A stretch of DNA of 64,000 nucleotides from Salminus brasiliensis. Its lineage: Eukaryota; Chordata; Actinopteri; Characiformes; Bryconidae. The notes under the pieces were generated by a model. It had not been told where the DNA came from, did no database searches, and worked only from the letters and a program-made list of their open reading frames with translations. Location: assembly GCF_030463535.1 (NCBI RefSeq), contig NC_132892.1, forward strand, positions 30,276,507-30,340,506, in the 5' to 3' direction. This document shows positions 4,098 through 64,000 of this stretch, one piece after another (the first letter of the stretch is position 1; every line of letters starts with the position of its first letter). The translations under genes and the position numbers were made by a program.

Positions 4098-5675
4098 ATG
4101 AGTAGCTTTGTAGGTCTCCGGGCTCTGAGCGGGGCCGGTCGGGCTTGCTGCAGGCTGCTCGACTGCCCCCAGATCAGTTCTCCGCAGGCGCGGAGCTGCA
4201 GCACTGCTGGACGGGCTGAACCCACAGACCGGCGTGTCCAGCCTCCGGCTCCGAGCCGGCTCTCAGAGAGATGCCTCTCCTCAGGACCTGGAGGCATGAT
4301 GAACGTGTTCGATAGAAACATGAAGAAGAGGCAGAAGAAATGGGCCTCGTCTTTACAGGACAGCCACAAGTACGACTATTTAAGAGATGAGGTCAGTGAC
4401 GATCGATTATCACTGTAATCGAGCAGCCTGCCGATTATTGTGACGATTAATCGATGAGCCCACTAATGGTTGCTGATTAGTACCGTAGCCTACTGATTAT
4501 TTTTGATAAATAATCAAGCAGTCAACCGATTATTTTTGAAGATTAATTGTGCAGCCTATGGATTATTGTGCCGATTAATCGATGAGCCTACAGATTATTG
4601 CGATAATTAATCAAGCAGCCTACCGATTATTGTGATGATTAATCAATGAGCTTATAAATGATTGCTCATTAATATCGTAGCCCACTGATTATTTTGATAA
4701 ATAATTAAGTAGTCAATCGTTTATTTTTGTAGATTAATTGAGCAGCCTACCAATTATAATGCCGATTAATCGATGAGCCTACAGATTATTGTGATGATTA
4801 ATCAAGCAGCTTACTGATTATTGTGACGATTAATTCATGATCTTATAAATTATTGCTCATTATAACCATAGCCTTCTGATTATTTTGATGAATAATCAAG
4901 TAGTCAACCGATTATTGTGATGATTAATCGATGATCTTATAAATGATTGCTCATTAATGTCGTAGCCCACTAATCAAGTAGTCAACCGCCTACAGCCTGC
5001 TGATTATTCAGATTATTAATTAAACAGCCTACCAATTATTTGGGAGAATATTGAGTAGCCAACTGATTATATTAATAACTCAAGCAGCCTACCGATTATT
5101 TTAACGATTAATCGAGCAGCCCACTGATTGTTTTGACAATTAATCAGTTTTGAAAAAGGTCAAATAATACAAATGCGTAGCTTAGCTGAAGAATGCTAAA
5201 CCATGCATAGTCTGACAACTGCAGTAAGACTTGTACCTGTAGAAAATGTAACTTTTAAAAAGACTAAAAATAATAAAACACTGATGTGTATATGATAATA
5301 ATATAATATAATAAAACTGAAAAGAGAGAAAATACACATTATCATTTGCATACTCGACACTTTTGCTGCCTAGGACATAATCCTGTTAGAGATATCGTCT
5401 TTATGAGATGAGTGTTCACCATATTTACACAAGCTCAGATTTTTAATAAATCTTGAGTTTGTCAATAAAAAAATAATAATGAGATATTTTATGTTATAAT
5501 TACAACAAATGCTGTATTTAAATATTTCATAATAATGAGACATTTTTCTCGCAATGACAATTATTTCATAATCATAACATATTGGTTCTACTACATCTCA
5601 AACATATGTCGTAATTATGACACAACTTTTTACTACATAATATCTAATAATAACACGGTTCTAAAAAGTATATGT

Positions 5676-17456: not shown

Positions 17457-19084
17457 CACACTAATAATATAGAGCATAAATGACACTGAGCTAAGATACA
17501 AGAGCCAGTACTGATGCAGACACACCATACCGAGATACGACCCTTCAAGTACTGGTATTGTGGTTGGTTATAATGGTTGGTGTGGTGCAACAGATAAAAC
17601 CACTAGCTGCCAGTGCAGTATTACACCAGGTTGAAGGACCAGGGTTCGATTCCCAGTGTGGTGTGACTATGCTGCGATGCACCAATAAGAGTCCTTGGGC
17701 AAGACTCCTAACACTACATTGGCCCACCTCTGTAATATGAGTAACCTTGTAAGTCGCTCTGGATAAGAGCATCAGCTAAATGATGTAAATGTAAATGGTA
17801 TTTTTTTTTTGCTCTTGGGCTCCCCCTACAGTTTGGGAGTGTAATTCACTTCTACACGACTCAAAGTATGTGGTTTAGGCTGAGCTGTGCTTGAAATGTA
17901 AAGAGCTTTTGAAATTTGATGCAGGCAGTAATGGCAGAGGCACGCCGTGCAGACTGTGCAGCATACAGGAGATGTAGTGGGTTCTTAACAAGCTCACCTC
18001 CGGGTACTTCATTTTGAGGGATTTGTGCATTTCCCTGAAGCGGCTGTACCGTCGAAATACAGTCCACGTCTCGTCCAAAACCGTGATCTGCAACCCGAGG
18101 AGAAATCTCATTACACTACTGAATACACCACTAATGCCCTACGACACCAAATACATGATTTTCACAAAGGTGATAGAGCCTAAAAATGAGGATTTGATTA
18201 AAACTGAAAGTAACCTGGATGTAGAGCTGGGCAATATGACGATGTTTTAATATCATATCGTGATGAACTTTGTTTTTCGTGATTACAATCTGCTTTTCTA
18301 AGCATATGGAGGAGACTGTTGGGGCTTAATAAACACTGATCAGCTGCAGGTTCCATTGCTAACAGTGTAATTAGACTGGGTTATTAGATGAAGAGCAGCA
18401 GATGTTGAATAAAATAAATCACCAAAACCATCAAAAATAGTAGTTTTTAAAGATCTGTCGCTAATGTTTTTAGTCTGTGATAAATATCGGGTATGGCGAA
18501 AAAAAGTCTTTAAATATTGTGATATAGTTTATTATTTTTACCATATTGCCCAGCCCCACCTAGATGCCTTATAATCTAACGTAATCAATGTAAGCCTGAC
18601 TACTGCTCTGTTAACCTGCTAATTGAAGGCAGACTATGAGTAAGGTTCCTTACTCTACTTAATGAGTTAAATAATGAGTCAGGAGCATCAGAATAGGAGG
18701 CTGTAAAGTCTCAGAGCCCTCATTCCCATTATTTAACAGTCATCCGGAACCTTGTAGAACCATGTAAAAGCTCAGGTGCTTGAGTTTTGGTTCTGGCCGG
18801 AGTGCTGACCTTGACTTCAAACTCGTAGTGCTCATCTTTGCCCTGTCCACGGAGGACGTAGCGCGGGATGCTGATCCTCACGGGATCCTTCAGACTGTCT
18901 GGACTGGGGCAGGAGTGGACAGATACCATACGCTGCACACGAGAAAGGAGAGAGAGAGGGAGATTGAGAGGGGGAGCGAAAGCTTTGTAGCAGTTAATTA
19001 TTATTAATACGACAAGTGATTGCAAGCTTGTCGAGCAGTTTAGGTAGTGTCGATCAGCCAATACCAGGGTGTTACTTTCCCCTA

Positions 19085-19158
<74 letters not shown>

Positions 19159-19659
19159 ATACAGTCAATACTGGAGCCATACCTCATACTTCTGTCGGCG
19201 GGGGTCTATGCGGTGTGTGTAGCTGTCCTGAAAGAAAATAAACAAACAATGCATGAATAAATTACAACAAATAACAGATCCTCGATGACGCTACACCAGC
19301 CAATCACATCTGCATTTGGGAGGTTCTGCAGTCCAGATGTTGGTCAGCCAATCATTCCCAACTTGAACTCCTCCTTAATAAGCAGGGCTTGATTTAGCAG
19401 ATCCAGGTAAGGAAAGTGATGTGTGGGACATGCAGAATGTGGAAAGGGGACTCAAACAGGTAGACCCGAAATACACCAAACTGAGCTCTACCACGGGCAC
19501 TATGGGTAATCGGTAATAGGCACATGCATGCAAATCTCAGCCCCGGCGTTCCCATCTCCAGATCCCCAGAGCTGCTTATTATGCGAGACCCCCGCTTACC
19601 TTCAACATTACCTCAGCTTTCAGTTTAACATTGTTATTCTCACTAACTTCCTCCTCCTC
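15044..19659 (-). CDS. kif16b: kif16b exons 26-31, PX domain and C terminus
   Basis: Exons: 19612-19659, 19183-19227, 18810-18932, 17998-18087, 17288-17371, 15044-15208. [15 protein letters not shown] begins the PX region; [20 protein letters not shown] holds the RRYSRF PI3P-binding basic motif, and FPPKKLFGN is the proline-rich loop that inserts into the membrane. The end [20 protein letters not shown] tail is highly conserved in KIF16B. Exon 26 (48 nt, [10 protein letters not shown]) is the least certain, as it rests on splice sites and reading frame rather than strong conservation. Confidence 0.9.
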
Positions 19660-22600
19660 CTGTTGGGTTGAACAGGTGTTAGTAGTGTAGTCTAAAGCGC
19701 CTCCTCATTCAGAACAGTGAACTATACAGTGTTATACTGAGGTCATTACCATTACAGTGAGTGGCCGCGTCATCACAGTAAGTGACTGATGAATTATGAC
19801 GAGGTCATTACTGTTGCACTGAATTGTAATGTTGTGTTACATTGTTGACGTAATGCTCAAGTCATTACAGTGGCACCGGAGTTATAATATGTGCCCTGAG
19901 CACCGATTTAAACTACACAATAAACTACATCTCAGTCATCCTTGAGTATATGAGGAGACTTATTCAGCGTTATCATCAATATTAATTCTGCGAAGCATAG
20001 CTATGATTATGCCAGTAAACCAGAGCACAACAATGGGTTTATGTGGAGTTAACAGACGTTATATAATGTATTATTATTGTTATTATTAATAATAATAATA
20101 ATAATAATAATAAATACACACTGGTTAAAGTCCATAAACACCACATAAACCCACAAATAACAATAATTATAATAATAATAATAATAATGTGTAAGTAGTA
20201 AGAGATTTTTTGCAACAGTGGTTTGCACACTTGCACACAGGACAACATAACCTGTTACACCGAGCGAGATATGCTGATATCATACCCTGTTACACCGAGC
20301 GAGATATGCTGACGTCATAACCCATTACACTAGATGAATTGTATAGTTATGCTGACGTCATAACCCGTTACACTAGATGAATTGTACAGTTATGCTGACG
20401 TCATAACCCGTTACACCAAGCAAGTTATGCTGACATCATAACCCGTTACACTGAGCGAGTTATGCTGACATCATACCGTTACACTGAGCAAGATATGCTG
20501 ACGTCATAACCCATTACACTAGATGAATTGTATAGTTATGCTGACGTCATAACCCGTTACACCGAGCGAGATATGCTGACGTCATAACCTGTTACACTAG
20601 ATGAATTGTATAGTTATGCTGACGTCATAACCCGTTACACCGAGCGAGATATGCTGACGTCATAACCCGTTACACCGAGCGAGTTATGCTGACGTCATAA
20701 CCCGGTACACCGAGCGAGTTATGCTGACATCATAACCCGGTACACCGAGCGAGATATGCTGACGTCATAACCCCTTACACCGAGCGAGATATGCTGACGT
20801 CATAACCCCTTACACCGAGCGAGATATGCTGACGTCATAACCCCTTACACCGAGCGAGATATGCTGACGTCATAACCCCTTACACCGAGCGAGATATGCT
20901 GACGTCATAACCCCTTACACCGAGCGAGATATGCTGACGTCATCACTGCTGCACTAGATGAATTGTACAGCTATGCTGACGTCATAACCTGTTACACTAG
21001 GTAAGAGTTATTCTGAGGTCATTACAGTGGGTTGCAGTGTTACAGGGACACCATTACTGTCATAGCAAAGGAACTGTAAAACTGTGAGCTGGTGAAGAGT
21101 TTCAGGGGGAAGTGTAGGTACCTGCAGGGAGTCTGAGGAGATTGAGAGACTGTTGATGCTGTCTCCATTCAGCAGGTTAATTTGACGGAGCCTCCTCTGC
21201 ACCTCCTCTTCAATAAATGCATTTATCCTAAACACACAAACACACAGTTTAATGATCCTATTTTCATTCTGGTTTGTGTGTGTGTGGTGAATATGGCGCT
21301 ACCTGTCGTCTGTTAAAGGCAGCACTGCAGGAAGGCCCTGGATGGGACTCACTGGACAGTTAGCCACGCCATTCTTCTCCTCACTACTGACCGACAGAGT
21401 CCGTCCATTTTTCTCACTCTCACTGATCCTCTGCTTCAGCTGAGCAATCTCTCTCTCCATCCTGAGACATACATGAGAGAGGGAGGGGGTGAGTATCAGA
21501 TACAGGAGCATTAAACATTAATAGTAATGTTCTAGTATTAAATGTTATGATTGGTGGTCATCAATAATGTGGACTATTGAAAGGATAGGCAAGTCAATAC
21601 AAAGGACAGGGTGTAGTAATTCCCACTGCTCCTCCGCTCCATCACCTTGAGTTCCACCCTCTATTCTGCACCTGCTCTCAGCTGTAATCCAGAGGTCCCC
21701 CTTTGAAAACATACCCCTCTTAAATATGGTTAAATAATGGTTTGAGTGATGCCATAGAGGAACCACTTTAGGCTCTTCACACTCTCTATTCACGAACACT
21801 CACAAACACTCTTGTGGCTGAATGTAATCAATTCCTCACAGCAATGATCCTCCAAAATTTAGTAGAAAGCCTCTTTCCTGGACAGTAGAGACCGTTACTC
21901 AGGAGAAACTCTTTAATACCCTCGATTTCAGAAGAAACGATGAATAAGCAGGTGTCCCAATACTTTTGTCCATAAAGTGTAGAGAAATACAGAGAGAGAT
22001 AGAGAGAGAGAAGCCCTGTCATACTAAGCTCCCCACCTCTCCTGGTCCAGTTCAGCCCCGAGCAGGGTGACGATGCTCCTCCGACGGCCGTCCTCCGCCT
22101 CGGGCTCCAGGCTGAGGCTCCTGCGGAAGGCGGAGTGTCTCCTCTCGAGCCGTGCCACCGCTCGCTCCAGAGCCTCCCTCTGCTGCTTCTCCTGCGTCTC
22201 CAGAATCTCCTGCTCCTTCCTCCGCACCTTCTCCTCCTGACGCGCCACGTTGGCCGTAAACTCGTACGTCTGCTGCAGCTGCTGGAGCTGCTCCGCGTTG
22301 GCGCTGTGCTGAGACAGGCGCTCCTCCTTCTCCTCCAGCTCCTTCTCGATCTGAAAAAGAGCCAGAGCCAGCTCAGATCAGTACGGTTTTCACAGCACGG
22401 CGTCTTTAACGGAGCTGAACGCCGATAATTTTCTCCTCACCTGATAAAGCGTCTCGTCCAGCTCCTTCTCCACCTGATCTGGACTGGGCTCGGCCCCCAG
22501 ACTCCTGCCCCCTGCACCTCTAGCCCACATCCTGTCCAGCGCCTCCTCGGCCCTCTGGCGCTCCTCAGAGACGGCGGGGAGGTGGTTCTGACGCAGACAG

Positions 22601-25600
22601 AGCAGCTGCCGCTCTTTACACTGCAGCCTGTGTTCGGCCTGAGACAGTAGCGCCTCCTCCTGGAGCAGAGAGGAGGTGTCCTGAGCGCCGCGCTCCACCG
22701 CCTCATACACCTACAGGAGAGGAGACAGCAAAAATAACGTCTGAAATTCACCAAAACCTTCAGCGCTTCTGCAAAGCCAACCACACCGTCCTGCAAAAAC
22801 ATGACACGTGGGTGAACTCGACAGCACAGGACAGTCCTGCCAGGAAGCTGTTCTCTCAGTCGAGTTTATCTTTACACACTTGCATGGTCCCACAGGTGTG
22901 AAAAAATTAGGACACCCCCTGAAAACTAGGGAGCTGGCTTTTTCAGTTCCAATACTGATACATACATTTTGCATATCGGTCGATACCCGATACCATTGTT
23001 GAATTAATAAACCATATACCTCAGCATGCGGGAGAGACTTAAGACATCAGGATTGACTGAAACATTACTTTACTAACTTTGTAAAACAAAATCTAACAAA
23101 TTAACACATAGATATAAATGTACTAAATTGCTATTTCTTTGTCACTAAAATAAACAAATTGTGCAGGACCCTGACACTGCATTCAAAGTCAAAATTCCAA
23201 AAAGGAGTCAAACTTCTTAAAATATATTAAAATAAATCAAACGTATCAGCCAAAGCTGAAAATAAGCAGCTTCACTTTGTCAAACACGCAAACAGTATCA
23301 ATCAATCAAAAATTATTTTTTATCAATTGATTTTGAAAATCTTTTTTATTTTTAGCGTAAACAGTAATTCAGAACAAAATCTAGCAGCTGAACCTGAAAC
23401 TAAATAAGTAACTTGGTCAAATATACAAGCAGTAATTAAATATTGTATGTAAACTATTTAAATATAATTAGAATTAGTAATTAAATATAACATGTAAACA
23501 TTTAGAGCAGTCTCACACCAACCAATTAAACTGAAAGGATCGGTTTCATGGATCTGCCTAATTATCCGATAACCGATCCAGCTAATTTTGTTAATATCGG
23601 GACCGATATCCGATCCTAATATCGGATCAGTGCATCTCTAATGAAAACCTTGATATTTTTTAATATAAAGACGTGATCTTTGTGATTGATTTTCATGGGA
23701 TATGAACAAAGAGGACAAATCTTCAGGTCAAGATTGACGAAGTAAGTAAAGTAATGTTTCAGTCAATCCTGATGCCTTAAGTCTCTCCCACATGGTGAGG
23801 TATACTATGGTTGATGAGGTTTATTAATTGACCATTCATCTGATCATCTGTCCAGAAGTCCTGGTCTTTGTCTAGACATTCCCTGGCAACCCTTTCTTTG
23901 CTCTCCTCCTCCCATGAAGATCAGACTGGTTTTGGCTCTTTCTAATGGTAGATGCTGTACTTCGTCTGATTTCTAAATGTTCTGAGATCTTTTTAAACCT
24001 CTTCTCAGACTCCTCTGGATCTCCAACCTTCTTTCTGAAGGCCTCAGAGAGCTCTCTGGATCTGGCCATGCTGGTGACCTTCTTCACCACTCACTTCACA
24101 AGGACAGTAAGCACAGGGGTCCCTCAAGGCTGTGTGCTGAGCCCCCTTCTGTACACGCTCTTCACATACGACTGTGTGGCCTCCCAGAACAACACCAGCA
24201 TCATCAAATTTGCTGATGATACTACAGTCATTGGACTGATCACTGGTGGGGAAGAAACAGCGTACAGGAAGGAGGTGGCTGAGCTGGTGGCCTGGTGTCA
24301 TGACAACAATCTTTCCTTGAATGCAGACAAGACCAAGGAAATGATTGTCGATCCAAGGAGGAAGCGAGAGCTGCACACACCCCTGTACATAGGGGAGACT
24401 GAGGTGGAGAGGGTGAAAACCTTCAAATTCCTTGGCATCCACATCAGTGAGGATCTCAGCTGGTCCCACAACACTCAGATCATCATCAGGAAGTCCCAGC
24501 AGAGACTGTACTTTCTGAGAAGGCTGAGAAAATTTGGCATGCCAGCCAAAATTCTCAGCACCTTCTACAGGAGTATGATTGAGAGTGTTCTTACCAGCTC
24601 CATCATCGTCTGGTATGGAAACTCTACTGCCCAGGACAGAAAGGCTCTCCAGCGTGTGATCAAAACCGCACAGTCCATCTCAGGAGCAGCCTTCCCCTCA
24701 CTGCAGAACATCTACCATAACAGAGTCACCAGGAGAGCCCACAACATAATCAGGGACAGTACACACCCCCAGCACACACACTTCACACTTTTACCTTCAG
24801 GCAGACGCTACAGGAGTGTGAAGTCCAGGACCACAAGACTCACAAACAGTTTCTACTCACAGGCCATCAGGCTTGTGAACACCTCACGCACTACCTCTCC
24901 AACCCTTCCTATCTGAACTGGTTTTAAACTCTAATCTGATTTTAACTGCACCTTACACTCACTGTACTGCTGCTGTCAGAACACTGTTTACATTCGCTAC
25001 TTGCACACTATTGTTTACATTTCTTACTTGCAACCTGCACTTTATAGCTGCTGCTCTTCATACTTGCTCATACTTGCACATAAAAGCACATGTAACTTTT
25101 ATTTTTAATTTTTTAATTGTAAAAAGGGAAAAAGTTTACTTTAATTTTATTTACTTCAACTTATATTATTATACTTTATTTATTTTGTATATATTTTTTA
25201 TTTTTTATTATTATTTATTAATTTCTTTTTTGTTATCTTTATCTATTGGTGAATGGAGGGACAGCAAAGTAAGAATTTCATTGTACAGCGTAACTTTCTG
25301 CTGTGCATATGACAATAAAACTCTTGAATCTTGAATCTTCAACTTCAATCAAGATTAGACCAGACTAAACGTCTGAGGTTTAAATCAGACAGACTCCTCC
25401 AGAATAATCCTCTCCAACCATGTTCTGATCATCTGCAGCTGATGTTCTGCTCCTGAGTCTGAAGCTTTTCCTACCTGTCTCTGTTTCTCTCTGTGCGTGT
25501 GCTGCATCAGGCTGATGGAGGCTCGTTCGTTGGCCACCTCCTTCTCCAGTCTCTCTCTCTGCTGAATCAGCCCCTCCTCCAGCGTCTCCAGCTCCTGCAC

Positions 25601-31900: not shown

Positions 31901-34695
31901 TTAAATGCAGGGAGGGGTGGAGAAAACCAGGCGGGATGAGCGGTACCAGCAATGGCGTTGGAGAGCGTGGAGCGAGAGAAGGATGGAGAGAGGAGGGAGG
32001 ACAAGACTCCTACGGAGGAAGAGAGGGAGGAGCGCTAAGGAGAAGGAGCAGGAGGAAAGGAAGGGGGAAGAGAAATCACCCATGCTGTCTCACACACACT
32101 CACACACACTCCGGTGCATACCCAGGGTTGTAGAGCATCACTGTGGAGAGGTTCTCACAGGACTTGGACAGATCAGTCATGGAGAGACTCAGCGAGCTCA
32201 GCAGACCACTCTGAAAACACACCCAGCAGAGGAGAGTCATTGGAGTCATTAGCTTTAGGTCACCGTTAGCCAGGTTAGCATATCCAGCTGATATTCCTTT
32301 TATTTAAAAGTAGTTAAGGCTGACGAGTGCAGCAGGTATATTCATCATGGATATGTGTACATGTGTGTGAGTGTGTTTAATTATATAAAAAAGGAAGGAA
32401 AATAATATTTAACAAAATAAAAAAGGAAAAAAGGAAAATAAATAAATAAATAAATAAATAAGAAAATTAAAAAGGAAAACAAAAAATTGAAAAAGTAAAA
32501 CCAGATTTGAAAAAAACGGAAAAGATAAACAAAAACAAAGAAATGGGAAAAAAAGAGAAAATGAGAAGGGGGAGGCTAAAAATAAAACTGGAAAAAAGAA
32601 AGAGGCAAAACATGGAAGACACATTTATGAGAAAGAAAAAGAAAAGAAATGATAAGAGGAAAAACAAAAACAAAAAAAAACAAGAGACAAATTATAAGAA
32701 AGGAAAAAAAAAACACAAAAATTATGAAAAATGTCAGAAAGGAAAAAAAAAATGCAAAACTTGAGCAAACAAAAACAAAAAATGAGTAAACAGACAGACA
32801 GACAGACAGACTGACCTTCCTCTTCTCCCGCAGTTTAGCCGCCTCTTTGGGATGATTAAACCTGAACATGTTGGTTCTGCCTAGCAGGATTACAGCACCT
32901 GAACACAGGAGAACCACATTTAGCTCACAGTGCATCAGAAACACCCGTGTGTGTGACTGTAACCAACTGTACACCAGCAAGGTGGAGCTACAAGAGAGGG
33001 GTTTCCAATAAAGTGGCCAGTGTGTCACTACATAACTAACTGTACACCAGCAAGGTGAAGCTACAAGAGAGGGGTTTCCAATAAAGTGGCCAGTGAGTGT
33101 CACTAACTAACTAACTAACTACACCAGCAAGGTGGAGCTACAAGAAAAGGGTTTCCAATAAAGTGTCCAGTGTGTGTCTCTACATAACTAACTGTGCACC
33201 AGCAAGGTGGAGCTACAAGAGAGGGGTTTCCAATAAAGTGGCCAGTGAGTGTAGCTAACTAACTGTACACCAGCAAGGTGGAGCTACAAGAGAGGGGTTT
33301 CCAATAAAGTGGCCAGTGAGTGTTACTACATAACTAACTACACCAGCAAGGTGGAGCTACAAGAGAGGGGTTTCCAATAAAGTGGCCAGTGAGTGTTACT
33401 ACATAACTAACTACACCAGCAAGGTGAAGCTACAAGAGACAGGGTAGTACTGAACGGACCTTGGTTGAGCTGGCAGGGTTCCGTGACCTGGACTCCATTA
33501 ACAGAGCACTGAGCTTCATTCAGAGGAATCAGAGTCACCATCCCGTTCTGATTCTCGAACAGGCAGTGTTCACTCTCCAGACCCAGACCATGCAGCACTA
33601 CGAGAGACACAGAGAGAGGCTCTTCTCAAATTACATACAATCAAATGAATTCCCCAGCAGCATCTGCCACATTACACAGCTCGTCTATCTTCTGGACCAG
33701 CCACACATGAGCCCGAGGTCTCCATGCCCAATGCTAAGGATCACCTCCAGAGATATAAAGCCCCCCTTCCCCCCCCTGCACTGAGCTGTGTATTGAATTT
33801 CAGCTAATACTTTTGGGATCGGGAGTCGGTGTGGCAGAACTACTCATCTAACATCAGTACCGGACCTCATTGATGCTCTGCTGTGGCTGAATGCAATCAA
33901 ATCCTCACAGCAATGTCCCAACATTTGGGGTAAAGCCTTCTCAGAAGAACAGGCTGGTTCTGCAGAGTAAAGGGGCTCCTTATGAATGCTCACCAATGTC
34001 CTGCTCGTTGTAGGCGTCTTCACGACCTACGAACGTTCTCCCCTCCTGCAACAAGAGATCGGAATCAGGTCTTTCCCAACACTGCCGATACTTTCAGAGC
34101 TTCATAGAACACTACACACTGTCAAATTACAGCGTTACACTACATGTCCAAATGTTTGCGGACACCCCTTATAATGATTGTATTCTGCTTCTTCAAGTTG
34201 CACCTACTGTTGACACACTAATGCCAGGCGTGGGCTAGAGGGATATAAAGCCCCCCAGCACTGAGCTGTGGAGCAGTGGAATAACTGTGTTCTCTGGAAT
34301 GATGGATGAAGTCCAATCCAGTACTTCTGGGATAAGTTGGGGAGCCAGAGTTTAGGCCCCCCAAAACTTTCCCTGATGGTCACTCCAACAAAAGCAGGCT
34401 AAAACCTTTTTTTAATACCCTTGATTTAGGAAGAAACAATAAATGAGCAGGTGTCCCAATACTTTTGTCCATCTGGTGCACAAACACCCATCAGGCCTCA
34501 TTCTCTCTGGGCAGGCTGTTAGCGGTTGGACATGCACAGTTTAACAGTGACTGAGCTTCGGTGAGTCTGACCTTCAAGTGGTAGAGGATAATGCCCGTGC
34601 TGAGCAGGTCATCATCTATGCCAATTAGATGAGGAAGTTCAGAGTCCAAAACAACACCGATTCCCTCTTTTCTCAGAGCTAGAGTCTGCTCCTGC

Positions 34696-37800: not shown

Positions 37801-40800
37801 GCCCAGCTTAACAACATACAGAACTAGAAAGCTTGCCTTTATGAAAATGCTCACTTTGGAGAGCCAGGGCGGTAAATGATGAGCCCAGAGCCTTACCTTC
37901 CACATAAGGGCCGTCTTTGGGGTGTTCGCGGACACGCAGGTTAAACGTCTTCGCCAGCTTCCTCCTCAGCAGATCGCGCACACGTTCATTATAAATCTCC
38001 AAATAACTGACGAACACACACACACACACACACAAAACAACATTAGCTTAGCTTCTACCACAGGGCTCTCCAAAAGCCCTCAGGCCTCGGACCATTACCT
38101 GACTTCTGTGCGAAAGGAAGCTTCGTCTCGGCGGGTCATTCCAGATATCCGAGTGAACAAGCCTTCACAGATCCGAGGAATTAACCCCACGTCTCCCTAC
38201 GACACACAAGACACACACAGGGGTAGAAGATACTCAGAGGGAGATGGACTGAGTAACAGTCACATTCCTACAGAAAGTCATGGTGGGGGCATTAGAACAT
38301 CTCCAAAGTTCTCCTCATGGAGTCTAGTACTATTCAGAGTTCTCCTGGGTGGGTTGTCCAGAAAAAGATCCACAGAAGATCTCACCTACGTTCCTGCATC
38401 TGTTCTAATGGGATCCGGAGCTTCCACAGTAAAAGCTCATGGCTGAGAGACATGCTTTTAAAGACTAGAGACACTTAGTCTTACAGGGTTCCCCATCATG
38501 GTGTAGGACTTCCCCGATCCAGTCTGTCCATAAGCGAAGATGCAGGCATTATAGCCCTCGAATGCTGCCCTCAGAACGTCCGAGCCCAGGTCCCTGAACA
38601 CCTGAAAAACAGCGACATGCATAAAATATAGTGTTGAACTTTGAAACTGCAGCTCTAAAAGCTGCGGCACCAACCCTGCTGAACCTGCCCGGGGTTTGTT
38701 CCAACCCTAATCTGACACGCAATATTAACATGAGCCTGAATATCGTTATGAGCAGGATTAAGGGTAACGGATTAGGGATGAAATTGAACTAATGTGAGGA
38801 TGGAAGATGTCCAGGAGCAGAGCCGGCCACTCACAGTGGCACTGTGACCTTCCAAATAAAGGTTATTTTAGTTTGTTTACCAAAAGAACTGAAGCCAACT
38901 GAGCAAGACTGAACGGTGAAGAGCTCTCTACATCAGTTTGAAGTCACATGATCGCTGAATGATCTACCAAACATCAGGACCATAAAGTAATGGCACAAGC
39001 CCTCAGGCTTTCACCAGAGCACAGGGATGGCGTTGTGTACTAAACACACAGACATGCCTGTAAAACAGCAGCGGTGCCACACCTTCAAACTACCTTTCAC
39101 AAACATGCTCAGTGTGTACCGTAAGCTAACACAGACTGAATGGACAAAAGACAAAAGTAATGGGACACCTGCTCCTTTATTGTTTCTTCTGAAATCTCCT
39201 TGTTGGAGGACTCTGTGTGAAAAAGGTGGCGAAGATTCTAGAACAGTGTGACCAAGGTAGGAAAGATTCTAGAACAGTGTGACCAAGGTGGAGAAGATTC
39301 TAGAACACTGTAAGTAAGGTGGAGAAGATTCTAGAACAATATGAACAAGGAGAAGATACTAGAAGAGCGTGACCAAGGTGGAGAAGATTCTAGAACACTG
39401 TAAGTAAGGTGGAGAAGATTCTAGAACATTATGAACAAGGAGAAGATACTAGAAGAGCGTGACCAAGGTGGAGAGGATTCTAGATGAGCACAAACATGAG
39501 AAGAAGACTGTACAACAGTGTGACCAAGGTGGAGAAGATTACGGTCAGCTTGTTCTGACAGGAGCTGAATCTGGAGATGAGGCTCTAAAAGCTCTCAACC
39601 TGAACCAGTGGCTCCAGAGGTGAGTCTGAGGAGCACTGTCCTGAATTCACAGTGAAACAGGATCACTGCCACTTACCCCAACCCAAAAAGTACGAGTCTA
39701 AAGGGTAAGCTGATTCAGGCACCAAAGCTGATTAAACCATCACACACCCAGTGCTTCAGCTGCCGACCCAGAACCTGAAAACTCAAGCATTTCCTTCATC
39801 ACGTCCACCATCGGGCAGAGAGCCACCTCTGACGGAGAGGCACACACCCACCCGGAGCTAAACCCGACGACCAGCTGAAAGAACAGCTTTGATTAAGCGG
39901 TTCCCTCTCGCACACTCTTAAAACTGAAGGTGCTACTAAGGGTTCCTCGAGCGATGCCTCAGAAGAACCATATTTGTGGACGCCATAGAGATGTGCGACA
40001 CACGTGGTTCTTTATGGAACCAGCGGTAGCTAGCTCTTCTACGGAATCGCTTATAAACCCATTCCTTTGCGTCTACTTATCCGTAACACACGTCTGTGCG
40101 TTAGCTAAAGGTCAGGTGACTTTGTAAAATGGGACAGTTCTTTAATAGGTCAGTGCTGCGCAGCCTGATTGGTCATTTTAGCATTAGAACCCCAGACAAT
40201 GGGCTTTTATACTCAGATATCCAGAGATTAGATGAGGAAAAGCTGGTCCTGGTAAATTTGGTCCCCAGGAAGTTACACCATTTTTTCCTTATCCCAAACA
40301 CACCGACCATCCATAACATCCGCAGAAGATTCAAGAACAAGATAAACATCAGGAGAACAGGGTGGAGAAGATTCTAGAACCCTGTGGCCAAGGTGGGTTC
40401 TAGGAGTATTAATAAGGTGGAGAAGATTATAGAGCCCTGTGGCCAAGGTAAAAAAGATTCTAGAACAGGGTGACCAGGGTGGAAAAGGTTCTAGAACAGG
40501 ATGAACAAGGTGGAGAAGGTTCTAGAACAGGATGAACAAGGTGGAGAAGATTATAGAACCCTGTGGCCAAGGTGGAGAAGGTTCTAGAACAGGATGACAA
40601 ATGTGTAGAAGATTCTAGAAACCTGTGGCCAAGGAGGAGAAGGTTCTAGAACAGGATGACCAAGGAGGAGAAGGTTCTAGAACAGGATGACCAAGGAGGA
40701 GAAGGTTCTAGAACAGGATGACCAAGGAGGAGAAGGTTCTAGAACAGGATGACCAAGGCGGAGAACATTCTAGCACAGGATAAACAAGATGATTCCACAA

Positions 40801-43287
40801 ATCTGATACCTAGAAAATTACATCATTTTCTCCCTATCCCAAACAGTCAGAAGGTGCCTGTGAAAGGTTATATTAGACACCAAGTGTACAGGGAGTCCTG
40901 GGATGCAGATCATTAAATCTTCAGGTTTTCCGAACATTTCTGAAACGTGACCGTCCTGGAACCTCTTTAAAAAGATACAGGACGTCCTTAAAACGTTCTA
41001 CGTTCTTTGGGTTATAGGCTAGTCAGATCTGTGGAGATGAATCATATCAGATCTAGCACCAACATCTCCAACACCTCACCTTCTCTTGAGAAACGAAGCG
41101 CATGCTAGAGCGGTCGCCTGAGTCGTAGGAAAAATCGTACGTGAACGTCTTGGTTCTTTCTCTTACAGTGTCTCCAGTCAAACCATCTGGAATCTGGAAC
41201 GAAAAAGAGAAACAATCAGTAATCAATGACTTTCTGAATGTAGCAGTAGTGCACTGTGCTTTTATACAGATGCTACCTATGCTAACTATCTGGTCAGCTA
41301 TCAGCAGCGATCAGCAGACAAAAGCATATTATTTCATATTATTCCACCCCCCCACCCCCCCCACACACACACACACACACCCCACCCCCCTCTGATCTTT
41401 GATGGTTCATTTCTCCTAGCTGCTGGATTTAGTTTAGCAAATACAGCAATAATGTAGTGTAACTAACTAGCGTAATTAGCTGTCAGTGACATTTTTTGAA
41501 GAGAGCGACCAATGAGATCAGTTCTAGGAGGCGATTCTAGAAGAGCGCGACCAATGAGATCAGTTCTAGGAGGTGATTCTAGAAGAGAGCGACCAATGAG
41601 ATCAGTTCTAGGAGGCGATTCTAGAAGAGAGCGATCAATGAGATCAGTTCTAGGAGACGATTCTAGAAGAGCGCGACCAATGAGATCAGTTCTAGGAGGC
41701 GATTCTAGAAGAGCGCGACCAATGAGATCAGTTCTAGGAGACGATTCTAGAAGAGAGCGACCAATGAGATCAGTTCTAGGAGACGATTCTAGAAGAGCGC
41801 GACCAATGAGATCAGTTCTAGGAGACGATTCTAGAAGAGCGCGACCAATGAGATCAGTTCTAGGAGACGATTCTAGAAGAGCGCGAGCAATGAGATCAGT
41901 TCTAGGAGACGATTCTAGCTCTAGAAGCGATTCTAGCTCTAGAAGAGCGCAATGAGATCAGTTCTAGGATACAATTCTAGAACAGTGTGAACAATGAGAT
42001 CAGTTCTAGGAGGCGATTCCAGAACAGCGTGAACTAGGCAGTGACGATCATTCTAGACTAACAGCTAAATGCAACACAGCCAATACAGCAATAAAGTGTA
42101 ATTAGCGGTCAGTGATTGTTCGCATTTTTTTGTGTTTAACCAGTTAAAATTAAACTCAAACTGGAAAAAAAACAAAGATACTACAGATTTCTGCTTTTAT
42201 AATACCTGAATTTCAGTCATTATTATTTTATCTACACATTAGAGTTTTAAATATGATGCTAAGTAGCGCTGCTAGCGTTTCCTACACCACAGTTAGTCAC
42301 ATCACGAAAAAGTTCCCAAGAAAAAGTCCATTAAAACTTACTTTTAAATTTGTGATGGTGGTTTTGTTCCCCTCCATCTCAATGATGCTTTGGGCAGATA
42401 ACTCCTTTTCACTAAACAGAAGAGACAGAGATCGTCTTCAGTTGAGGGGACAGGAACTAGCTAGTGCAACTGATTGGACAAGAGCACCATTTCTTTGCAG
42501 ATGTCCTCTAGTGCAGAGACATTCTTGGGTCGTCTTGCTGTCAAAACCCCTCGGCGGTCATTACAAACATCAGGGCAAGGCCAAAGTTTCCAGAGAACAC
42601 CTAGATGGAGACCAGGACATCTGGGACAAAGTGCTTTGGACAGATGACTCTTCTTCTCTTTGTCTCAACCTTGTCTCGTCTCTTTCTGACGGAAGACGCT
42701 GTACTTTAAGCTGGTCAGACCTACCTGAAGGTCCTGTGATGACCTTTTAGGACCGCTGGAGACTTCTTTGTGTACTTTGTGGTCTGATCTGGGGCTGAAC
42801 TTGCTGGGGACAGTCTGATCTGGACATGTTGACAAGTGTTTGACTTCTGAGATCCTTTTAAATGCTTAACCAGAATGACCAGCTAGTCCCATCAAACTCC
42901 ACGCTGGTCAACCTGCATCACCAGCTGTCTGGATGACCAGCGTTTCCACCACACTGACCATCAAAGACCAGCTTGGACCATCTTCCAGCAGATCCTGAGC
43001 TGGACTTAACATCGGTCCAGGCTCAGGGTCTGCTGGTAGCTGCTTTGAGATGGTCTAATCTGGTCTGTGATGGTCAAGAAGGTTGAAGAGCTGGTTGAGA
43101 AGATACCCTATACTGGTGAGCAAGCTGGTCTCTCCTAGCTGCTGGGTTTAGAGGGGGGGAGAACCAGTGCGTGGCAGGTGGATACTCAATGGGCAGCATT
43201 TGTGGTGGAAGCCCAGGAGAACCCACCTAGCAGCTCTTACCGTGTGTTCATGGGCCGGACCCTCACGGCCACTCGTACGGAGGCCAT
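15044..43287 (-). CDS. kif16b: Kinesin family member 16B (PX-domain kinesin-3), complete
   Basis: Kif16b is a plus-end kinesin-3 that binds PI3P on early endosomes through its C-terminal PX domain and moves receptors and cargo outward. Thirty-one coding exons run from the ATG at 43285-43287 to the TGA at 15044-15046 and total 4092 nt, 1363 aa, against about 1317 in human. The start [16 protein letters not shown] matches the family. Order: motor (1 to ~360), neck and FHA (~435-565), coiled coil (~595-1190), PX (~1220-1340), C-terminal FDYSSHGTG. All junctions are GT-AG and in frame. It is convergent with ndufaf5 and divergent from nup133. Teleosts may have two kif16b paralogs; which one this is cannot be decided here. 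Exon coordinates are in the part entries. Confidence 0.95.
15373..15605 (-). mobile_element. tRNA-derived SINE with LINE-like tail (copy B1)
   Basis: Reverse strand of the family at 17.56 kb. On the plus strand it shows CATTTAGCTGACGCTCTCAT (tail) through GTTGCGCCACACCAACCAC (head). It lies in the last kif16b intron. Confidence 0.8.
15938..16250 (+). repeat. Dispersed duplicate 2 (partner at 14.16 kb)
   Basis: Direct copy of 14160-14520, also carrying an expanded (TAA)n run. Adjacent to it, GTTGACCAGAACATTGGGCC at 16268 repeats 15776-15797. Confidence 0.85.
16580..17078 (+). mobile_element. LINE 3' end fragment (decayed reverse transcriptase C terminus and tail)
   Basis: Interrupted reading frames encode pieces resembling the C-terminal region of fish non-LTR reverse transcriptases ([51 protein letters not shown]). 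The sequence ends with TTGTAAGTCGCTCTGGAGAA and a GCGTCTGCC segment, the same tail type used by the SINEs at 15.4, 17.6 and 30.7 kb. The 5' end is truncated. Confidence 0.7.
17560..17800 (+). mobile_element. tRNA-derived SINE with LINE-like tail (copy B2)
   Basis: The head GGTTGGTGTGGTGCAACAGA has an A-box-like start, and GGTTCGATTCCCAGTGTGG is a good B box. The tail AAGTCGCTCTGGATAAGAGC is followed by ATGTAAATGTAAATG. It lies in kif16b intron 29. Confidence 0.85.
18221..18560 (+). mobile_element. MITE family D copy 1
   Basis: The left end GAGCTGGGCAATATGACGAT and the right end TACCATATTGCCCAGCCCC are inverted. The interior matches 31157-31458 (CACTGATCAGCTGCAGGTT; GAAGAGCAGCAGATGTTGAA). Confidence 0.8.
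19086..19156 (+). repeat. (CA)n microsatellite
   Basis: About 35 CA units in kif16b intron 27. Confidence 0.98.
20262..20998 (+). repeat. Minisatellite, ~35-50 bp units each centred on TGACGTCA
   Basis: The unit is ATGCTGACGTCATAACCC plus GTTACACCGAGCGAGAT, or a longer variant with ACTAGATGAATTGTATAGTT. I count 16 exact TGACGTCA palindromes from 20310 to 20984; other units carry TGACATCA or TGATATCA. It lies in kif16b intron 25. Confidence 0.95.
21122..27482 (-). CDS. kif16b: kif16b exons 18-25, coiled-coil stalk
   Basis: Exons: 27429-27482, 27112-27313, 25953-26209, 25475-25865, 22441-22710, 22037-22350, 21303-21461, 21122-21227. The encoded ~580 residues are Glu/Gln/Arg/Leu-rich heptads ([44 protein letters not shown]). 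Exon 20 contains an acidic insert built on an LLEES repeat and LEVLEVLEV. Donors of exons 18 (GTTTTG) and 19 (GTTTGT) are weak, so alternative splicing is plausible. Confidence 0.9.
21805..21982 (-). mobile_element. MITE family A fragment
   Basis: Ends on the plus strand with GGTGTCCCAATACTTTTGTC and CATAAAGTGTAG, the reverse of the family 5' terminus. It lies in kif16b intron 23. Confidence 0.75.
22955..23640. mobile_element. hAT-like MITE
   Basis: The left part has ATATCGGTCGATACCCGATA and the right part ends CGATCCTAATATCGGATCAG then TGCATCTCTA, resembling termini of fish hAT nonautonomous elements. An additional inverted block (23010-23075 versus 23735-23812, AGACTTAAGACATCAGGATT) surrounds it. 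Confidence 0.5.
23845..25450 (-). mobile_element. Tc1-like transposase relic, split by a LINE insertion
   Basis: 23872-24097 on the minus strand encodes a transposase N-terminal-like piece ([32 protein letters not shown]). It resumes at 25339 with CAATCAAGAT and GACCAGACTAAACGTCTGAG. An uninterrupted relative lies at 35735-36015. Confidence 0.75.
24098..25338 (+). mobile_element. 5'-truncated L2/CR1-like non-LTR retrotransposon
   Basis: The ORF continuous to 24916 encodes the C-terminal part of a reverse transcriptase: [19 protein letters not shown], catalytic [56 protein letters not shown] and [19 protein letters not shown] 3' UTR follows with ATTTCATTGTACAGCG and GACAATAAAACTC, ending in TTGAATC repeats, a usual 3' end for such elements. 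It starts mid-domain and lacks the 5' half, so it is a dead-on-arrival copy although this part of the frame is open. Confidence 0.88.
26346..27045 (+). repeat. 30-bp minisatellite, about 22 units
   Basis: The unit is AGAGCCTCGTTCTAGAGACC followed by GATGGTCATT. Units from about 26600 to 26880 are nearly identical, and outer units are diverged. It lies in kif16b intron 19, just after coiled-coil exon 19. Confidence 0.97.
27483..28150. other. kif16b intron 17 part, no gene recognised
   Basis: AT-rich unique-looking sequence with short AATATAAAA runs near 27730-27780. Confidence 0.5.
28155..28505 (+). mobile_element. tRNA-derived SINE (copy C1)
   Basis: GGTTCAGAGTGTCTCAGTGG and TCTAATG carry an A-box-like segment, and GTCGCAAGTTCGAATCCCGA is a B box. 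The body GCCATCAGCAGCCGGAG continues to GCATTGCTAGTGCTAGGGGG, and an A-rich tail ends near 28503. Relatives lie at 34945-35170 and 50155-50535 in reverse. Confidence 0.85.
28863..28900 (+). repeat. (CA)n microsatellite
   Basis: About 19 CA units in kif16b intron 17. Confidence 0.97.
29035..29500. mobile_element. Fold-back element with long inverted arms
   Basis: CAGGCTCCTGCAGATGGCGC near 29063 is inverted at 29446-29472 (GCGCCATCTGCAGGAGCCTG). A central palindrome, about 29247-29335, pairs GGAAGCATACGGTCATAC with GTATGACCGTATGCTTCC. Intermediate segments also pair imperfectly. Confidence 0.85.
29501..30730. other. kif16b intron 17 part, no gene recognised
   Basis: AT-rich sequence with (ATAAAT) and TATATA patches. 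A Lys-rich ORF at 29596-29889 has no family features that I recognise and no exon-like boundaries. Confidence 0.5.
30731..31118 (+). mobile_element. tRNA-derived SINE (copy B3) interrupted by a MITE A fragment
   Basis: The SINE head TGGTTGGTGTGGTGCAACGG and CATTGGGCAAGACTACA are followed at about 30840-31025 by MITE A sequence (CATTCCAGAGAACACAGTTC; CCCACGCCTGGCATTAGGC). The SINE resumes with ACTACATTGGCCCTCCTCTG and the TCTGGATAAGAGCGTCAGC tail. Confidence 0.8.
31157..31458 (+). mobile_element. MITE family D copy 2
   Basis: Same termini and interior as 18221-18560: GGGCTGGGCAATATGACGAT at the left, TACCATATCGCCCAACTG at the right. Confidence 0.8.
32122..35620 (-). CDS. kif16b: kif16b exons 11-17, neck and FHA domain
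   Basis: Exons: 35555-35620, 35383-35442, 34572-34691, 33994-34045, 33460-33597, 32816-32898, 32122-32210. Residues ~393-434 form the neck ([18 protein letters not shown]). The FHA domain runs from [15 protein letters not shown] to [17 protein letters not shown], with the FVGRED and ESEHC strands that bracket the phosphopeptide pocket in this fold. [17 protein letters not shown] follows as a Ser-rich linker. Exon 13 has a 50-bp (TG)n run upstream of its acceptor. Confidence 0.93.
32375..32815. repeat. Polypurine (A/G) low-complexity tract with (GACA)n end
   Basis: About 400 bp of A- and G-rich sequence in kif16b intron 16, ending in CAGACAGACAGACAGACAGA next to the exon 16 donor. Lys-rich and Phe-rich ORFs over it are compositional artefacts. 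Confidence 0.9.
32960..33440 (+). repeat. ~65-bp minisatellite shared with nup133 intron 8
   Basis: The unit contains GTACACCAGCAAGGTGGAGC, TACAAGAGAGGGGTTTCC and AATAAAGTGGCCAGTGAGTG, about seven copies, in kif16b intron 15. The array abuts exon 15. Confidence 0.93.
33665..33960 (-). mobile_element. MITE family A fragment
   Basis: Contains the reverse of the family interior (GCTGAATGCAATCAAATCCT; CACAGCAATG) between kif16b exons 14 and 15. Confidence 0.5.
34133..34482 (-). mobile_element. MITE family A copy with both termini
   Basis: Left TACACTACATGTCCAAATGT and right GTCCCAATACTTTTGTCCAT are the family termini. The interior GCCAGGCGTGGGCTAGAGGG matches the reverse of the 54.9-kb copy. 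Confidence 0.8.
34695..34746 (+). repeat. (CA)n microsatellite at the kif16b exon 13 acceptor
   Basis: On the transcribed strand this is (TG)n ending a few bases before the CAG acceptor of exon 13. Confidence 0.97.
34824..34889. repeat. (TA)n microsatellite
   Basis: About 33 TA units in kif16b intron 12. Confidence 0.98.
34945..35170 (-). mobile_element. tRNA-derived SINE fragment (copy C2)
   Basis: Reverse strand resembles 28155-28505 (GCTTTGCCATCGGCAGCCGG; GGAGGCGCTGGCTGG). The promoter half is lost. Confidence 0.65.
35735..36015 (-). mobile_element. Tc1-like transposase relic, uninterrupted
   Basis: Shares CTTTCTGAAGGCCTCAGAGA and TGGATCTGGCCATGCTGGTG, then CACTTCAACTTCAATCAAGA and CAGACTAAACGTCTGAGG, with the split relic at 23.8-25.4 kb, but without the LINE. 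Confidence 0.8.
36258..43287 (-). CDS. kif16b: kif16b exons 1-10, kinesin motor domain
   Basis: Exons, 5' to 3': 43241-43287, 42342-42411, 41080-41193, 38485-38601, 38099-38196, 37897-38006, 37586-37728, 37313-37481, 37019-37150, 36258-36433. The P-loop [13 protein letters not shown] starts at residue 102, switch I is [11 protein letters not shown] and switch II is [12 protein letters not shown], followed by [20 protein letters not shown] and [11 protein letters not shown]. All nucleotide-binding motifs are intact, so the motor should be active. Exon 6 has a (TG)n run directly upstream of its acceptor on the minus strand. Intron 3 holds two TTCTAGAA-rich minisatellites and intron 2 a third array. 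Confidence 0.95.
36434..37018. other. kif16b intron 9, no gene recognised
   Basis: AT-rich with a TTG/GTT-rich low-complexity patch at 36855-36900. Confidence 0.5.
39138..39215 (+). mobile_element. MITE family A 5' fragment
   Basis: AATGGGACACCTGCTCCTTT and ATTGTTTCTTCTGAAATC match the family 5' end. Confidence 0.65.
39215..39545 (+). repeat. ~30-bp minisatellite with TTCTAGAA core, block 1
   Basis: The unit is GGTGGAGAAGATTCTAGAAC followed by AGTGTGACCAA, about ten diverged copies in kif16b intron 3. Confidence 0.92.
40365..40785 (+). repeat. ~30-bp minisatellite with TTCTAGAA core, block 2
   Basis: The unit is GGAGAAGGTTCTAGAACAGG followed by ATGACCAAGGA, about thirteen copies, clearly the same family as block 1 but separated by about 0.8 kb of other sequence. 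Confidence 0.93.
41510..42060 (+). repeat. 42-bp minisatellite with TTCTAGAAG core
   Basis: The unit is CCAATGAGATCAGTTCTAGG followed by AGGCGATTCTAGAAGAGCGC and GA, about twelve copies in kif16b intron 2. Because 42 is a multiple of three, it yields a false repetitive ORF. Confidence 0.96.
42420..42850 (+). mobile_element. Decayed Tc1-like transposase fragment
   Basis: One frame reads [20 protein letters not shown] then LWTDDS, matching the first catalytic-Asp region of fish Tc1-like transposases; stops and frameshifts surround it. It lies in kif16b intron 1. Confidence 0.6.
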
Positions 43288-43799: not shown

Positions 43800-43811
<12 letters not shown>

Positions 43812-44275
43812 AATGAACTTATCTCTGATTGGCTGTATTCATTTAGGGTGCATCCAGACCCAGTCTAGACTGAAACCCTAGTCTCGGAGTCTCAGAGTCC
43901 TGCCTACGTAGGGAGCATTTCCTACAATTCAGACACACCCACATATCCTTAAGGAGTTATGCAAATGACCTTAGCTCTGATTGGCTGTATTCATTTAGGG
44001 TGCATCCAGACCCAGTTTAGACTGAAACCCTAGTCTCGGAGTCTCAGAGTCCTGCCTACATAGGGAGCATTTCCTACAATTCAGACACAACCCACATATC
44101 CTTAAGGAGTTATGCAAATGACCTTAGCTCTGATTGGCTGTATTCATTTATTGTGCATTCAGACCCAGTCTAGACTGTCTGGACTGAAACCATAGTCTCT
44201 GAGTCTCAGAGTCCTGCCTACATATCCTCAAGGAGCTATGCAAATGACCTTATCTCTGATTGGCTAGCAGTCTAG
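43800..44275 (+). repeat. Tandem repeat, ~125-153 bp, with ATGCAAAT and GATTGG
   Basis: Four units. Each starts near ATGCAAAT (43807, 43959, 44112, 44238), followed by CTCTGATTGGCTGTATTCAT; the first three continue with CAGACCCAGT-type sequence and GAGTCTCAGAGTCCTGCCTA. It begins about 0.5 kb upstream of the kif16b ATG. Confidence 0.93.
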
Positions 44276-44459
44276 ACACTAGTGAACAGGCTAGACTAGC
44301 CTAGCCTATCCTGTGCTTGTGTGCTGAACAGGATATGGGCACTCGTGACGTCATAAAACCTGTAAATCTGAGAGTTTGCAAATATTTATTTTTGTGTATA
44401 TCATGTTTGCATGTACATATAATGGGTGGGTAGATGCTTTGATGAAGCACCTGAAAATA

Positions 44460-45723: not shown

Positions 45724-64000
<18,277 letters not shown>

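Follow-up and report, generated by a model that had tools for sequence, protein, structure and literature searches.

Sixteen exact CRE palindromes in an intronic minisatellite of kif16b

An intron of kif16b in Salminus brasiliensis holds a minisatellite most of whose units contain a full CRE (TGACGTCA), and the question is whether such a cluster serves as a CREB/ATF binding platform, an enhancer or a decoy, as the original prediction proposed, or whether the motif was simply copied along with its repeat. In vitro, CREB/ATF proteins would be expected to recognise TGACGTCA when it is unmethylated. The locus was analysed in a stretch of 64 kb (the window; positions 30276507-30340506 of contig 15) from a 1.066-Gb assembly with 103 contigs. 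It is proposed here, with considerable confidence, that the array is best explained as a private, recently homogenised intronic minisatellite in which the CRE is fortuitous; the functional reading of the CRE cluster gains no support from the indirect tests applied.

Host gene, repeat units and distribution of the array

The host gene had been named as kif16b in the original prediction, and matches of a PX-domain exon to KIF16B structures (PDB 2v14, E 5.2e-10; 6ee0, E 8.7e-9) together with matches to the kinesin motor domain bore this assignment out (Table 1). The PX-domain exon on one side and, on the other, a likely coding exon and the motor-domain ORFs place the array inside the gene. One of the motor-domain ORFs (38.5-38.7 kb) matches at the P-loop region; the array is more than 17 kb downstream of this exon and hence at least 17 kb from the gene start. 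No Pfam family (0) was found in the ORF of the candidate exon to the right of the array, and the ORF 41053-41310, which had been picked by eye as a first coding exon, was rejected, a kinesin match being absent. A further open frame within kif16b (23918-24916) has a reverse-transcriptase match (RVT_1) and probably belongs to a non-LTR element.

Table 1. Coordinates of the array, its parts and the neighbouring features (positions in the window).
Feature	Position	Strand	Basis or remark
kif16b PX-domain exon	18789-18893	-	PDB 2v14 (ORF residues 105-139) and 6ee0
Relic of older array, four diverged units	19705-19880 (limits approximate)	+	nhmmer with array units
Minisatellite, 21 units	20248-21021	+	Unit dissection and alignment; TRF 20246-20943, period 35, 19.1 copies
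Left edge unit of young array, decayed core TGATATCA	20248-20282	+	Unit dissection and alignment
Span of 16 exact TGACGTCA sites	20310-20984 (675 bp)	.	
Starts of exact TGACGTCA sites	20310, 20353, 20396, 20499, 20542, 20577, 20620, 20655, 20690, 20760, 20795, 20830, 20865, 20900, 20935, 20977		
u15-u19, five identical 35-bp units	20768-20942	+	0 differences between neighbours
Right edge unit, 37 bp, divergent	20985-21021	+	Core TGAGGTCA, then TTACAGTG as in one left relic
Likely kif16b coding exon right of array	21122-21227	-	AG...GT bounded; assigned by position alone
Kinesin motor-domain ORFs, best kinesin-3 type	36.2-36.6 kb, 38.5-38.7 kb	-	

The units of the array are arranged head to tail, and their length falls within the range of minisatellite units (~10-100 bp). 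Type A accounts for 15 units (35 bp in 14 of them, 33 bp in one) and type B for five (42-43 bp), and one edge unit has 37 bp. With few exceptions both types have AG[A/T]TATGCTGACGTCATAACC..TTACAC in common; the middle of type B is longer than and different from that of type A. Units of both types are intermixed in the array, the edges of which have diverged, and the right edge unit contains TGAGGTCATTACAGTG, which is relic-like (see below) and unlike the other young-array units. The units u15-u19 are, judged by their identity, the array's most recent expansion. The limits proposed earlier (20262-20998) do enclose array sequence, but the array extends slightly beyond them.

A coding reading of the array was rejected, since its longest stop-free run is 36 codons and each of the six frames contains 13 to 25 stops. 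No RNA family was matched at 18500-22500 (0 Rfam matches). Terminal inverted repeats were likewise rejected: in none of the 19 inverted pairs in 19900-21300 do the arms enclose the array, and the single long pair is a separate, MITE-like fold-back element (20034-20153) with 58-nt arms that are 76% complementary and with the ends TGGGTTTATGTGG / CCACATAAACCCA. The relic units are separated from the array by this element and by (TAA)n tracts (20034-20188).

Close copies of the unit were confined to the array. A 29-mer of the unit has eight exact matches in the 1.066-Gb assembly, and a 26-mer has 17 when up to 3 mismatches are allowed (reversed control 0), all of which lie in the array (8/8 and 17/17). 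Pattern counts of repeats are lower bounds, and relatives with the divergence of the relic units would escape such patterns. In 200 kb from other places in the genome, no profile match better than E 1.7 was among the matches listed. The unit pattern had 0 exact matches in viral_contigs and genome_contigs and none in phages, as expected for fish DNA. Among the matches listed from the open-licence literature, the accessible parts of the papers describe neither a CRE minisatellite nor a kif16b minisatellite.

Number of CRE sites and chance expectation

Exact TGACGTCA occurs 17 times in the 64-kb window, and 16 of these sites fall in the array, exactly the number of perfect palindromes that had been counted before. 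Being present in 16 of the 21 units, the site agrees with the CRE-centred units of the original prediction; these units have two main lengths. A few decayed copies had also been foreseen, and five of the 21 units do lack an exact site: three carry TGACATCA, and the first and the last unit have TGATATCA and TGAGGTCA, respectively. Comparison with shuffled sequence, proposed as a check of the motif density, gave a mean of 0.50 and a largest count of 2 in 100 dinucleotide shuffles of the window against the 17 observed, although such shuffles assume independent sites and those of the array are tandem copies of one unit. No relation to the array was detected for the 17th CRE, at 44346: its local score (26.5) lies inside the range of best scores of 20 shuffled units (26-33.5), and its profile match has 4.9 bits (E 5.1).

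Because all of these array sites were copied from a single unit, the question to ask is how frequently a minisatellite unit contains a CRE. Under the composition of the window, the probability for a 35-bp unit is 3.5e-4, which is rare per array; under that of a sample of 200 kb, made up of 20 stretches taken at round coordinates on contigs 1-16, it is 2.2e-4 at 35 bp and 3.5e-4 at 48 bp. The sample contains 10 minisatellites (five or more copies of a 15-100-bp unit, with a total of 200 bp or more), 0 of which have a CRE in the unit, and in the whole sample 0 CREs were observed where 1.4 were expected. Extrapolation from these 10 arrays would give the genome ~53,000 minisatellites (Poisson 95% roughly 26,000-98,000) and, at the central value, about 12-19 CRE-unit arrays by chance. 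By the same rule, the density of minisatellites in the window is nearly three times that in the sample (9 in 64 kb vs 10 in 200 kb). A CRE is absent from the eight other window arrays that were compared. Against a purely fortuitous CRE, classical transcription-factor words occur in several unrelated arrays of the window; 3.7% would be expected per 35-bp unit, an illustrative figure based on 15 classical motifs that were partly chosen after the heat-shock elements and the octamer described below had been seen.

The window contains 16 exact three-unit heat-shock elements, for which we take the consensus to be GAAnnTTCnnGAA or its complement. Five and seven of them are in arrays at 39215-39540 and 40414-40788, respectively; both arrays lie beyond the P-loop exon in the 5' direction, within kif16b or a little upstream of it, some 18-20 kb from the CRE array. 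Among the 20 sampled stretches, L031 contains 31 exact three-unit elements in an array of 2.1 kb (positions 3470-5569 of L031); of the remaining 19, a single stretch has one site and 18 are empty. For a 17-mer of the L031 unit the genome gives at least 731 matches (398 on the plus and 333 on the minus strand; reversed control 0). The 100 matches that were listed form, once neighbours are grouped, 27 loci, which lie on contigs 1-3; at least two matches occur in 18 of these loci. Judged from these pattern matches, minisatellites with heat-shock-element-like sites form a dispersed family, a more remarkable class of repeat than the CRE array. Against constraint on the element, the central TTC C is kept in 35 of 60 loosely matched sites of L031; the three window stretches have it in 8/8, 10/11 and 10/10. 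A 42-bp array at 41498-42034, both strands of which are open for more than 150 codons, has a unit related to the heat-shock-element arrays (local scores 38 and 29 vs a shuffled maximum of 23). The arrays at 32960-33439 and 51098-51719 belong to one unit family (CTGTACACCAGCAAGGTGGAGCTACAAGAGAGGGG...) in which CpG is nearly absent (0 and 4), a 152-bp tandem repeat at 43806-44177 (2.4 copies) contains three octamer and three CCAAT-type words, and a long open frame of the Tc1/mariner transposase type (Sleeping Beauty HTH, DDE_3) lies at 60927-62063.

Conservation of the core and units without a CRE

That the core CpG has mostly survived, as stated in the original prediction, holds for 16 of 21 cores, but such survival is not special to the core. 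In the 14 units of 35 bp, the core CpG is intact in 10 and two other CpGs in 12 and 13 (p = 0.20, Fisher test); with distinct units only, the figures are 5/9 in the core vs 15/18 at the other CpGs (p = 0.18). A fourth CpG, at unit position 6 and outside the Fisher test, reads CG in 8 of 15 type-A units (TG in two, CC in five) vs 11 of 15 for the core. The core losses in type A are CpG-type transitions, to CA three times and to TA once; type-B units have kept the core CpG in 5/5. In the alignment of all 21 units, the best-kept eight columns are TATGCTGA (0.994), followed by ATGCTGAC and then by TGACGTCA (0.964), which is tied with CTGACGTC. All six non-CpG columns of the core are invariant across the 21 units, and in the 14 units of 35 bp variable non-CpG columns number 0/6 in the core vs 3/21 outside (p = 1.0). 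The core is not seen to be kept better than the remainder of the unit, in tests whose power is low, the units being few and related.

The CpG o/e of the array is 1.24, vs 0.48 in the window and 0.34 in the 200-kb sample, and its 50 CpG in 776 bp equal the maximum among 633 sliding windows. The arrays at 4416, 41498 and 26368 also have high CpG o/e (1.20, 1.06 and 0.89; 0.00-0.26 in the five others compared), indicating that CpG richness is not tied to the CRE. Given the identity of u15-u19, recency and homogenisation would suffice to account for CpG survival.

About 370 bp to the left of the young array, four diverged units remain of an older one. A search by nhmmer with the array-unit profile, which covered the window outside the array and the 200 kb from other places in the genome, matched 19731-19819 with 18.8 bits (E 0.00024), and a second, weak match at 19795-19868 had 8.7 bits (E 0.34); the best of 100 column-shuffled models reached 14.2 bits, and 0/100 attained the 18.8 bits of the relic. 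An earlier weak match of this region at ~19.7 kb (score 34.5) had been equalled by 2 of 50 shuffled tandem units. The word GTCAT[T/C]AC occurs nine times on both strands of the window, of which four are in the relic stretch (19742, 19769, 19804 and 19861) and two others in the array. The cores at the four relic positions are, in that order, TGAGGTCA, CCGCGTCA, CGAGGTCA and TCAAGTCA; none is a CRE (0/4), nor does the unit at the right end of the young array (TGAGGTCA) have one. The non-CRE cores of the four relics and of the right edge unit suggest that the CRE is probably derived and was then amplified. It arose perhaps by one substitution, TGAGGTCA and TGACGTCA being one change apart, and on the simplest reading the old unit would have carried TGAGGTCA or something similar.

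We propose that replication slippage, unequal exchange or gene conversion built the array up from an older one with cores like TGAGGTCA or CGAGGTCA, in which the core of one unit would have been turned into TGACGTCA by chance. The CRE-bearing lineage would then have been amplified, the CRE being copied with each duplication, and the CpGs would survive through the youth and homogenisation of the copies rather than through selection on the site; the cluster itself would be without function. The relics support such a late, chance origin; a single CRE gain that spread to 16 units is what selection would also give, and as an amplified gain fits selection too, the relics leave our weighing of the explanations unchanged.

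Alternative explanations and known systems

The array could be a putative CREB/ATF platform and serve kif16b as an intronic enhancer that responds to cAMP or stress, or else be a bZIP decoy. This is favoured by 16 exact full CREs within 675 bp, by the CpG kept in 16 of 21 cores and by a CpG count at the top of the sliding windows, and repeated CRE clusters in promoters are held likelier to be critical in the accessible part of one study (PMC3091680). The same part gives about 622 occupied full CREs in mouse round spermatids and 613 in GC1-spg cells, which its authors compare with more than 10,000 predicted in human (PMC3091680). The array is away from the 5' end of kif16b, although an internal promoter is possible; its core CpG is kept no better than two other CpGs, and the core losses of type A are of the CpG type, as expected under germline methylation. 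Iguchi-Ariga and Schaffner are said to have reported in 1989 that CpG methylation of TGACGTCA abolishes binding. A core without excess conservation (at low power) whose CpG decays like its neighbours, relics without a CRE, more than 17 kb to the P-loop exon and some dozen or more chance arrays per genome are indirect results, none of which favours a platform, enhancer or decoy, and we regard this reading as unlikely.

Two further explanations place the cause of the expansion in the motif itself. An 8-bp palindrome might promote slippage, the motif then being present for its secondary structure and not for protein binding. Perfect palindromes of at least 8 bp do occur in five of eight consensus units (4416, 20246, 39215, 40414 and 41498), and the 10-bp palindrome of 40414 is reached in 0.8% of mononucleotide shuffles; but the folding of three two-unit strings does not surpass that of shuffled strings (z -0.54, -0.69 and -0.11) and 13% of the shuffles of the CRE-array unit contain a palindrome of 8 bp or longer, which leaves this explanation very unlikely. 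The array might also be an M26-type recombination hotspot, where meiotic ATF-type binding would open chromatin, attract double-strand breaks and drive expansion. On the minus strand the exact site reads ATGACGTCA, which contains the fission-yeast M26 heptamer ATGACGT; a T follows the site in 16/16 exact array sites, and all thus have the heptamer. CRE-bearing units were amplified and CRE-less relics were not. In fission yeast ATGACGT and Atf1-Pcr1 go with local chromatin opening, according to the accessible part of one paper (PMC9775316), and the accessible part of another describes a weak association of stickleback hotspots with the PRDM9 motif and an enrichment of six PRDM motifs (PMC6553505). 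However, the former also describes a natural ade6 CRE in fission yeast that is unbound and does not promote recombination (PMC9775316), the accessible parts of the matches listed hold no evidence of vertebrate CRE hotspots, and the eight other window arrays compared are arrays without a CRE; a hotspot of this type seems to us highly improbable. Equally little credence is given to the boldest version, in which one substitution would have made an inert repeat into a CRE that drove its own spread via germline ATF/CREM opening and recombination. If this were true, the array would be polymorphic and would act as an intronic kif16b switch that cAMP or stress could tune; together with the heat-shock-element arrays, both those nearby and those dispersed in the genome, it would mean that this fish draws stress-response sites from minisatellites.

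A recently homogenised minisatellite with a fortuitous CRE is the explanation that we retain. A tandem repeat has here multiplied a transcription-factor word sixteen-fold with no sign of selection, which calls for caution in claims based on motif density. The array matters little as it stands; it is a clean natural test object for homotypic CRE clusters far from promoters, and alleles differing in intact and decayed cores, together with the adjacent CRE-less relics, would allow the effect of the cluster to be measured.

Human satellite III is bound by HSF1. Like satellite III, the kif16b array is a tandem repeat linked to a stress-responsive transcription factor, here by its sequence motif; unlike the pericentric, stress-transcribed satellite III, it is 0.8 kb long and intronic. 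The accessible parts of two papers describe satellite III as HSF1-dependent in stress (PMC8535310, PMC9032817). With the ade6-M26 hotspot of fission yeast it shares ATGACGT, an ATF/CREB-type site, but M26 is a point-mutation site in a fungal gene, as far as the accessible part of the source goes (PMC9775316), and the fish locus is an intronic tandem array described at the level of its DNA. The array most resembles an ordinary vertebrate intronic minisatellite of the VNTR type, with its unit of 33-43 bp, two mixed unit types, diverged edges, identical recent copies and no close copy elsewhere by pattern search, and it differs from such repeats in that its unit happens to contain a full CRE.
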